In this document: one piece after another, positions 198 to 55,217 of the stretch
Layout of the letters: the number at the start of each line of letters is the position of its first letter
Position numbering within the stretch: the first letter of the stretch is position 1
Assembly: GCF_019029495.1 (NCBI RefSeq)
Contig: NZ_JAERQM010000001.1
Location: 248,001-312,000, forward strand
Length of the DNA stretch: 64,000 bases
From: Falsiroseomonas oleicola
Lineage (GTDB): Bacteria; Pseudomonadota; Alphaproteobacteria; Acetobacterales; Acetobacteraceae
Reading direction: 5' to 3'
Notes under the pieces: model-generated
The model's input: only the letters and a program-made list of their open reading frames with translations
What the model was told of the DNA's origin: nothing
Database searches by the model: none
Position numbers and translations under genes: made by a program

Positions 198-243
198 TAC
201 CAAATCCCGGCGATCGTAGCCGATCACCGCCTCAATCGCCGGC

Positions 244-323
244 GCCGGCATCCGCCGGCTTGGCTACGCGCCACTTGGCGCGGCGCCCATTTGGGCGCTC
301 GGACCGGTCAAGCGACCGGTCCG
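244..323. repeat. Four-hairpin repeat cassette, copy A
   Basis: Four perfect hairpins stand almost end to end between two convergent genes: 244-259 (stem GCCGGC, loop ATCC), 267-282 (CGCGCC/GGCGCG, loop ACTT), 283-298 (GCGCCC/GGGCGC, loop ATTT) and 300-323 (10-bp stem starting CGGACCGG, loop AAGC). The linker after hairpin 1 is TTGGCTA and one T separates hairpins 3 and 4. The same architecture, with the TTGGCT linker and the single T but different stems, recurs at 54782-54854. It could act as a bidirectional terminator here. The matching layout points to a repeat family (REP/BIME-like) or a structured RNA rather than a chance terminator. There is no T-run. Confidence 0.75.
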
Positions 324-53805: not shown

Positions 53806-54761
53806 AACGCCTGTTGCTGGCCACGCTGATGGCCTGCGCTTCCCTGCCTGCCCTGGCGCAGGACAATTTCCCGAACCGCCCGCTGCGCTGGGTGGTCGGC
53901 TTCGGCGCCGGCGGCGTCGGCGACATGACGGCACGGCTCGTCGGCCAGAAGCTGTCGGAGGCGCTGGGCCAGCCGGTGGTGATCGAGAATCGCCCCTCCG
54001 CCGGCGGCATCGTGGCGACGGAAACCGTGGCGCGCGCGGCGCCCGATGGGCACACGCTGCTGCTGGTGACGGCCACCGCCGCGACGGCGCCACATCTGTT
54101 CCGGCAATTGCCCTATCACCCGATCGACGATTTCGAATTCGTCAGCCAGATCGCCTCCTTCCCCCATATCATCGTCACCAGCACCAACTCCCCCTATCGC
54201 AGCCTTCAGGACCTGATGGCGGCGTCGCGCGCCAATCCGGGGCGGATCAATCTTGGCTCGGTCAGCGTCGGCACGGCGCTGCATCTGTCGCTGGCGCTGT
54301 TCCAGTCCATGGGGCAGTTGCCGGCGGAGGTCGTGACCTATCGCACCACCGGCGAATTGCTGAATGCCACGGCCACCGGCGATATCGGCGGCGCGATGGA
54401 GGTGGCGGCGACAACGCTCGGGCAGATTTCCGGCGGGCGGTTGCGACCGCTGGCCGTCACCTCTCCGCGCCGCAGTTCGGTGCTGCCGGATGTGCCGACC
54501 GTCGCCGAAAGCGGGCTGCCGGACTACAATGTGGTCACCTGGAATGCCATGGCGGCGCCGCGCGGCACGCCGCGCCCGGTGATCGACCGGCTGAACGCGG
54601 AAGTGCGCCGCGTGCTGGCGATGCCGGAGGTGCGGGACCGTCTGTTGCCCCTGGCCGTCGAACCTACCCCCACCACGCCGGAGGCCATGCGGCAATTGCT
54701 GGTCGACGAGACCGCACTCTGGGGTCGCGTGATCCGGGCCGCGAATATCGAGAGGCAATAG
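53802..54761 (+). CDS. Bug-family (TctC) binding protein
   Basis: 319 residues. Clear Sec signal MKRLLLATLMACASLPALAQ. Mature part RPLRWVVGFGAGGVGDMTARL, PVVIENRPSAGGIVATETVARA and RINLGSVSVGTALHLSLALF. It closely resembles the Bug protein two genes upstream (52124-53089), so the pair is a probable old duplication flanking the aldolase. ATG 53802 overlaps the aldolase stop. Repeat copy B follows. Confidence 0.92.
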   Translation: MKRLLLATLMACASLPALAQDNFPNRPLRWVVGFGAGGVGDMTARLVGQKLSEALGQPVVIENRPSAGGIVATETVARAAPDGHTLLLVTATAATAPHLFRQLPYHPIDDFEFVSQIASFPHIIVTSTNSPYRSLQDLMAASRANPGRINLGSVSVGTALHLSLALFQSMGQLPAEVVTYRTTGELLNATATGDIGGAMEVAATTLGQISGGRLRPLAVTSPRRSSVLPDVPTVAESGLPDYNVVTWNAMAAPRGTPRPVIDRLNAEVRRVLAMPEVRDRLLPLAVEPTPTTPEAMRQLLVDETALWGRVIRAANIERQ

Positions 54762-54781
54762 TCTTCCCTCAGGCGCCGGGC

Positions 54782-54854
54782 GCGCGCTCTGCGCGCTTGG
54801 CTCGCCGCATGCGCGGCGGCGGCCATTCGGCCGCTCGGCCCAGTTCCTGGGCCG
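54782..54854. repeat. Four-hairpin repeat cassette, copy B
   Basis: Four hairpins in the order and spacing of copy A at 244-323: 54782-54796 (GCGCGC, loop TCT), linker TTGGCT, 54803-54818 (CGCCGC/GCGGCG, loop ATGC), 54819-54834 (GCGGCC/GGCCGC, loop ATTC), a single T, and 54836-54854 (CGGCCCAG/CTGGGCCG, loop TTC). Stem sequences differ from copy A while pairing is complete. It lies between same-strand genes, so here it is not simply a terminator between convergent genes. Confidence 0.75.
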
Positions 54855-54884
54855 CAGGATGCAACACGTGACAAGGCTCGCCCG

Positions 54885-55217
54885 ATGAACATCCCCACCA
54901 TCGACTGGAACGCCATTCCCTGGACGCCCGTGCGCGAAGGCGTCGAGCGCAAGGGCTTCACGGGCGAGGGCGCGACGCTCGCCCTGCACCGGCTGATGCC
55001 GGGGCATGAGCCGAAGCCGCACAGCCATCACTTCGAACAGATCGTCTATATCCTGGCGGGCACCATCGACTTCCATATCGAGGGGGTGGTGCATCGCCTC
55101 TCGGCGGGCGGGCTGCTGGTGGTGCCGCCCAACGCCCTGCATCACGGCGTGGTGGTGGGCGACGAGCCCGTGCTGAACCTCGATGTCTTCACACCCGCGC
55201 GGCCCGAATATGCCTGA
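54885..55217 (+). CDS. Cupin domain protein
   Basis: 110 residues, single barrel. Metal motif PKPHSHHFEQIVYILAGTID and second motif VVPPNALHHGVVVGDEPVL show the His/Glu set of a metal-bound cupin. Role unknown; it overlaps the next dehydrogenase-like gene by 8 bp and belongs to the hydantoin-type island. No signal peptide. Confidence 0.82.
   Translation: MNIPTIDWNAIPWTPVREGVERKGFTGEGATLALHRLMPGHEPKPHSHHFEQIVYILAGTIDFHIEGVVHRLSAGGLLVVPPNALHHGVVVGDEPVLNLDVFTPARPEYA

Follow-up and report, generated by a model that had tools for sequence, protein, structure and literature searches.

Integron attC sites are single hairpins that are recognized by shape as a folded single strand and recombined by a site-specific recombinase, with a conserved structure and a variable stem, and the double-hairpin elements of fungal mitochondria are mobile sequences of organelle genomes in which the two stems differ while their pairing is kept. 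Among the repetitive extragenic palindromes (REPs) of bacteria, those of the GTAG class are moved by transposases of the Y1_Tnp family. In a survey of REPs, these are described as single hairpins of 20-40 bp, and a CGTC class is described as mostly alphaproteobacterial, with no dedicated transposase reported and with stems and loops that vary within the family (PMC3733652). According to the same survey, CGTC REPs carry an 8-9 bp stem with A-T in its first two positions, a loop of 4-5 and a tail CCA, occur mostly as head-to-head dimers, and are missing in Acetobacteraceae (PMC3733652). Judging by its named relatives, the genome considered here probably belongs to that family.

The two loci considered here lie in one window (the whole 64-kb stretch of DNA that was analyzed) and belong to a family that works like a REP. 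It consists of dispersed, high-copy palindromes (119 in the genome) in extragenic positions (117 of 119), and fits the broad definition of a REP except in size, its unit being ~90 bp and its long form ~130 bp rather than 20-40 bp (PMC3733652). Like the GTAG REPs and BIMEs that accompany a REP-associated tyrosine transposase (RAYT), the family consists of intergenic palindromes that occur in high copy number, carry an unpaired 5′ tag that is conserved, vary in their stems and prefer gene 3′ ends. Unlike them, however, it has the tag CCCTCA instead of GTAG and strings together four or five hairpins over about 90-130 bp, and Y1_Tnp is missing from all 15 genomes of the genus considered here. The likeness to CGTC REPs extends to alphaproteobacterial spread, the failure to find a dedicated transposase, and stems and loops that differ within the family, whereas a by-eye comparison with that description finds no CGTC tag, A-T-starting stem or CCA tail; a palindrome nested in some copies does have CGTC on its other strand. 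The long forms have outer repeats, as do MITEs with terminal inverted repeats, but most copies are without terminal repeats and a single clean junction shows no obvious target duplication. By analogy, variable stems on a conserved structure may be common to this family and attC, although attC has one hairpin and this family several, and kept pairing with differing stems may be common to it and the double-hairpin elements of fungal mitochondria.

Both window loci are hairpin strings (244-323 and 54780-54854), as a first, sequence-only reading of the window had described, each with four hairpins, a TTGGCT(A) linker and a single T. That reading placed copy 1 correctly and began copy 2 two bases too late (54780, not 54782). 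It recognized the string, but the unit extends further: its start lies 14-15 bases 5′ of hairpin 1, at CCCTCA or, in copy 1, GCCTCA. A part of the conserved linkers, GCC ... GGC, is itself paired in the predicted fold. The features are as follows.

198..228, + strand: left part of the long form of copy 1, with outer repeat TACCAAATCCCGG right after the stop codon TAA (195-197)
within 198..228, + strand: imperfect fifth hairpin of copy 1, GGCGATCG-TAGC-CGATCACC, after the outer repeat, read from the sequence
229..243, + strand: 5′ tag of copy 1, GCCTCAATCGCCGGC (family consensus CCCTCANNCGCCGGGC); covariance model match 229-304
244..259, + strand: hairpin 1 of copy 1, GCCGGC-ATCC-GCCGGC, from the sequence
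260..266, + strand: conserved linker of copy 1, TTGGCTA, whose GGC pairs with an upstream GCC in the predicted fold
267..282, + strand: hairpin 2 of copy 1, CGCGCC-ACTT-GGCGCG, from the sequence and predicted fold
283..298, + strand: hairpin 3 of copy 1, GCGCCC-ATTT-GGGCGC, from the sequence and predicted fold
300..323, + strand: hairpin 4 of copy 1, CGGACCGGTC-AAGC-GACCGGTCCG, preceded by a single T (299), from the sequence and predicted fold
54762..54884, + strand: entire intergenic space holding copy 2, between a receptor-like gene ending at 54761 and a cupin-like gene starting at 54885; missing in 7 of 8 comparable relatives
54766..54779, + strand: 5′ tag of copy 2, CCCTCAGGCGCCGG; covariance model match 54766-54840
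54780..54796, + strand: hairpin 1 of copy 2, GCGCGC-GCTCT-GCGCGC, from the sequence and predicted fold
54797..54802, + strand: conserved linker of copy 2, TTGGCT, from the sequence
54803..54818, + strand: hairpin 2 of copy 2, CGCCGC-ATGC-GCGGCG, from the sequence and predicted fold
54819..54834, + strand: hairpin 3 of copy 2, GCGGCC-ATTC-GGCCGC, from the sequence and predicted fold
54836..54854, + strand: hairpin 4 of copy 2, CGGCCCAG-TTC-CTGGGCCG, preceded by a single T (54835), from the sequence and predicted fold

These two are the only four-hairpin chains in the window when both strands are scanned. The claim that their stem bases differ almost throughout was overstated: 5 of the 18 pairs in hairpins 1-3 differ between the copies, each on both sides, and hairpin 4 differs in length as well. 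The predicted DNA folds of the two copies, on either strand, lie 3.7-5.7 sd below dinucleotide shuffles. A right outer repeat matching the left one of copy 1 was not seen alongside it; a close relative of copy 1 elsewhere in the genome (C29:144954) has the same start and a fully paired fifth hairpin.

Across the family, the ~90-bp unit reads CCCTCANNCGCCGGGCG, hairpin 1, CTTGGCT, hairpin 2, hairpin 3, T and hairpin 4, with 0-2 bases between CTTGGCT and hairpin 2. The loop of hairpin 1 is about TCC and that of hairpin 3 mostly ATTC or GTTC. The conserved 5′ tag is CCCTCA, which was built into two of the search patterns described below (5′ half and named genomes) and was absent from the two-copy pattern and from derivation of the consensus; upstream of it, 70 short-form copies show T-rich bases at -8 to -5 and a G at -1. 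In the predicted DNA fold, the conserved bases flanking hairpin 1 pair with each other, GCC with GGC, enclosing GG opposite TT. In two copies, C1:1211566 and C25:152548, this basal helix shows a matched change, to CGGCGG with TTGCC. The long form of ~130 bp, with a left outer repeat of about TNATACCAACGG and a fifth hairpin, accounts for 24 of the 119 copies; a recognizable right outer repeat accompanies 20 of the 24, these repeats are of about 9 bases or more, and long forms start at a stop codon or close to it. An indication from C23:503449 that long-form flanks are mutual inverted copies was not borne out, the value of 6.05 compared with 5.91 in permuted pairs (sd 0.28) representing no excess.

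A second palindrome, TGCCNNAGGCACGCCNNNGGCGTGACG, matches the genome 27 times when up to 2 mismatches are allowed, and 20 of these matches fall inside a copy or no more than 10 bases from one; it sits at the CG of CGCCGG, and a related one occurs inside hairpin 2 of several copies. This nested palindrome of ~30 bp occupies two fixed spots, at a CG, and its other strand begins with CGTC; it is found in hairpin 2 of L029, L040, L049, L055 and L061, and in the 5′ tag of C1:741803, C25:464699, C30:64395 and others. Other variants were also observed. Some copies (C1:1192947, C12:293702, C1:744722) have, immediately upstream, a separate ATACCAACGGTCGATTTCATCGACCGTTGGTAT-like hairpin with an outer repeat in common with the long form. 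Two copies of this genome (L053, L054) carry an unrelated structured stretch of ~45-50 bases in place of hairpin 2, and replacements of a similar kind occur in Roseomonas and Roseococcus loci. Four loci (L106, L150, L151, L174) have TCCTCGCATAAGCTCGGGCGGCC-like sequence replacing hairpins 2-3 and form their own subfamily; L106, L150 and L151 are Sphingomonadales by title, the titles among the four being Qipengyuania, Croceicoccus and Sphingomonas. Copies also occur in tandem, ~100-135 bp apart (L004, L007 and L024; L165; G283:C5:26468-26772), and L004 includes a truncated copy that ends after hairpin 1.

In DNA this rich in GC, the four-hairpin geometry by itself is no more than modestly unusual. 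When one strand was scanned in 100 sequences of 64 kb simulated with a third-order Markov model (the real + strand has 2 chains), 74 held no chain, 25 held one and one held two, and 12 earlier Markov sequences held 0-2 each. The assertion that two such strings are unlikely by chance is therefore borne out only modestly by geometry alone, which appeared in 26 of the 100 simulated windows, and holds when TTGGCT after the first hairpin is included, a combination seen in none of the 100. In the genome, there are 12 exact matches to a pattern built from the two window copies and 55 to the 5′ half alone, CCCTCANNCGCCGGNCG-hairpin-CTTGGCT, compared with 0 for the reversed pattern in both cases. A covariance model search of the genome and its relatives, which the sequence-only reading had proposed, was carried out with a model built from 37 copies at a cut-off of E 0.01 or better; it finds 119 copies here, both window copies among them (84.7 and 77.7 bits; a third match in the window reaches 18.8 bits, E 0.029), and further copies in relatives. 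These genome-wide counts rule out the interpretation of the strings as chance hairpins of GC-rich DNA, the probability of which we regard as practically nil.

With the same model, each of the 14 other genomes of the genus yields 40-100 matches; the eight genomes examined from other genera of the family yield none, and of 16 from other families, three yield 2, 15 and 22. A pattern scan of named genomes, in which the tag and linkers were fixed (and are hence invariant there by selection) while the stems and hairpins 2 and 3 were left free, matched at least 116 stretches. Among the 80 matches listed, every name more specific than 'Proteobacteria' is alphaproteobacterial, the carriers including Roseomonas, Falsiroseomonas, Neoroseomonas, Roseococcus, Rubritepida, Niveispirillum, Nitrospirillum, Azospirillum, Magnetospirillum, Caenispirillum, Terasakiella, Erythrobacter, Qipengyuania, Croceicoccus and Sphingomonas. 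Of the 124 distinct copies that these loci contain, 67 have hairpins 2 and 3 as complete stems following CTTGGCT, and the remaining copies have mismatched or longer structures at that position. A broader model matched 27 of 289 sampled Alphaproteobacteria genomes (this genome included), representing 21 of 219 genera and 17 families; 4 of the 27 are weak matches (best E 1.6e-5 to 7.8e-5), and the matches counted in this survey were capped at 16 per genome. One copy used as a query matched no phage; among plasmids, two Niveispirillum records match at 6 places. No Rfam family matches within the window at its gathering score; when one copy was scanned permissively, three matches below threshold appeared, the best to Twister-sister at 15.6 compared with 34 bits, which we take as chance. 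A description of the element was not found in the open-access literature searched; subscription papers fall mostly outside that coverage, and a prior description is thus possible. The suggestion of an undescribed repeat family is borne out to this extent, and the repeat is apparently undescribed.

The stems vary among copies while remaining paired. In an alignment of 41 copies, 97.3% of 754 cells are paired, even with five long-type copies (L003, L009, L014, L019, L030) whose misalignment in hairpin 1 reduces the pairing of that hairpin, and versions of the alignment that were slid out of register are 34-54% paired. Changes in this alignment are two-sided in 147 cases and one-sided in none, strongly supporting the earlier statement that the stems change in paired fashion. 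None of 500 shuffles reached the pairing or covariation score and 1 of 500 reached the number of pairs with two-sided changes, and 421 of 500 reached the number of further pair types. When pairing was not required, hairpin 1 of 55 copies from this genome gave 349 Watson-Crick, 0 G-U and 3 mismatched pairs, and that of 122 copies from other genomes gave 732, 8 and 32; G-U thus makes up 8 of the 43 non-Watson-Crick pairs in both sets, about the level expected by chance (2 of 12 types). Hairpins 2 and 3 of 64 copies, with at most one non-pair admitted per stem, gave 775 Watson-Crick, 0 G-U and 15 mismatched pairs. Overall, none of 1,142 stem pairs of hairpins 1, 2 and 3 in this genome is G-U, and 15 tRNA acceptor stems, a small control, have 97 Watson-Crick, 4 G-U and 4 mismatched among 105 pairs. 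Because a G-U pair on one strand corresponds to C-A on the other, this points to both strands keeping their pairing, whether as DNA or in RNA transcribed from either one; the lack of G-U does not alone exclude a bidirectional RNA function. Free shuffling of whole hairpins among copies is only partly supported: in the 64 of 119 copies that could be parsed (55 were dropped, not fitting the parser pattern), the type of hairpin 1 is independent of that of hairpin 3 (p 0.64) and weakly associated with that of hairpin 2 (p 0.012), and 2-3, 1-4 and 3-4 are associated.

Genes were called with a simple codon-score caller rather than taken from annotation, giving 65 genes and 92.6% coding in the window. 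On this basis, with overlap of up to 40 bases allowed, the 117 intergenic copies include 7 that overlap a called gene by 1-40 bases. They lie between converging genes in 48 cases, between same-direction genes in 34 and 31 (the two orientations) and between diverging genes in 4; the 64 intergenic spaces of the window comprise 8 converging, 48 same-direction and 8 diverging. Compared with these spaces, copies are in excess between converging genes (p 3e-20 by count, 4e-32 by length), and between same-direction genes they show no preferred orientation (34 versus 31, p 0.80). When a gene runs towards the 5′ end of a copy, the copy starts 3-14 bases past that gene in 25 of 82 cases. In the (-,-) context, the complement of the tag, TGAGGG, lies 4-10 bases from a called start codon in 12 of 31 copies, where it could serve as a candidate ribosome-binding site.

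The gene pair flanking copy 2 is present in 8 of the 14 other genomes of the genus, and in the 7 that are without the element the stop and start codons overlap by one base (5 genomes) or are one base apart (2). The eighth, G003, carries an element with the same tag, linkers and layout and with different stems in hairpins 1, 2 and 4 and different loop bases. Its copy could reflect either rewriting of stems in place or an independent insertion; G002, which is more similar to this genome, is empty. Six further sites hold eight more copies of this genome, and every relative that aligns there (two or three per site) is without them. A comparison of G012 with G013, which are ~90% identical, covered 200 kb of each and revealed 8 copies, of which 7 of the 7 assessable are in one genome only. 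Altogether, 16 copies were assessed, of which one is shared (copy 2, with G003) and 15 are absent from every aligning relative. This count leaves out C1:467125 and 467226, whose flanks are on different contigs, and G012:C11:289386, where G013 has 1.3 kb of other DNA; relatives were counted only where their flanks align, which excludes G002 at site A and G007 at site B, among others, and the evidence at site C in G003 is a 35-base gap only. Absence at a site could reflect loss and not only lack of gain. G012:C11:253351 provides one clean junction, with no obvious target duplication; the ends of most insertions are blurred, since intergenic DNA diverges fast at 80-91% identity.

A search for the REP-associated tyrosine transposase that the sequence-only reading had thought might accompany the repeat detected Y1_Tnp neither in this genome nor in any of the 15 genomes of the genus, with controls positive in 5 of 14. 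Outside the genus, Y1_Tnp is present in 4 of 20 carriers. One such gene lies 1.1 kb from an element in L306 and was considered as a RAYT beside it, a candidacy that was rejected: the gene is flanked by other repeats. This unit (L306:1330-2180), with AGTAAACTGTCGCCGTAA or similar repeats on both sides, is a separate transposon-like unit. Around the other four Y1_Tnp loci, the ~1.5 kb covered contains no strong element, and inspection by eye of genes between close copies (first 60 residues; 10 of 13 pairs) revealed no evident transposase.

Both sites are probably copies of a high-copy, non-autonomous, REP-like family of mobile palindromic DNA, because the copies are dispersed, almost all intergenic with a preference for gene 3′ ends, and without preferred orientation, have matched stems without G-U, and vary in presence among relatives. 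Copies would be inserted by an enzyme, perhaps one that reads hairpins on single-stranded DNA, and insertions would survive mainly behind stop codons, where they are least harmful; the matching of the stems may persist because both strands need to pair or because one arm serves to repair the other, and new spacers, sometimes with a new ribosome-binding site between genes, may arise as a side effect. Against this interpretation stand the failure to find a mover, the possibility that absences reflect loss, the emptiness of G002 while the less similar G003 is occupied, and the partial association of hairpin types. More tentatively, and with considerably less confidence, we suggest a mobile DNA in which shape is inherited more than sequence: a recombinase other than a RAYT might recognize the folded strand by its CCCTCA tag, GG/TT internal loop and hairpin order, and each cycle could copy one arm onto the other, such that stems drift as matched pairs while tag and linkers remain fixed across Alphaproteobacteria.

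It is unlikely that the copies are instead functional elements of mRNA 3′ ends, whose hairpins end or protect transcripts arriving from either side and are kept for a need of the host rather than by movement. Such a role would account for the excess of copies between converging genes and closely behind stop codons (the 25 of 82 within 3-14 bases), and pairing needed in RNA of both strands would forbid G-U too; yet 15 of the 16 assessed copies are missing in every comparable relative, none of the 8 genomes from other genera of the family carries any, and prediction of T-run terminators gives none at copy 2 and a single weak one at copy 1, on the - strand and upstream of the string. Somewhat less likely still is a MITE of a DDE transposase, in which the long form, TACCAACGG...CCGYTGGTA, would be the mobile entity and the short form its decayed core. 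The left outer repeat in 24 of 119 copies, 20 with a recognizable right one, is what such an element would present, but the left repeat is lacking in the other 95, other genera have the core tag and linkers in common and not the outer repeats, and the one clean junction is without an obvious target duplication. The proposal of a structured RNA, cis-regulatory or small, whose stems changed by compensatory evolution, is not favored and appears very improbable. Although strong covariation, folding better than that of shuffles, and TGAGGG 4-10 bases from the start codon in 12 of 31 copies of one context are consistent with an RNA, same-direction genes carry the copies in both orientations almost equally (34 versus 31, p 0.80), G-U intermediates are lacking among the 1,142 pairs of this genome compared with 4 of 105 in the tRNA acceptor stems, the window has no Rfam match, neighboring genes are varied, and copies turn over among relatives, being missing at orthologous sites.

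The family provides a caution that strong covariation is by itself no proof of a structured RNA. The absence of a RAYT points to a mobilizing enzyme yet to be found. In many Alphaproteobacteria, a repeat present at up to about a hundred copies per genome remodels gene ends, as illustrated by copy 2, where a stop/start pair that overlaps or nearly does so in relatives is here 123 bases apart. If the stems are rewritten arm by arm, the family would constitute a natural record of hairpin-templated mutation.
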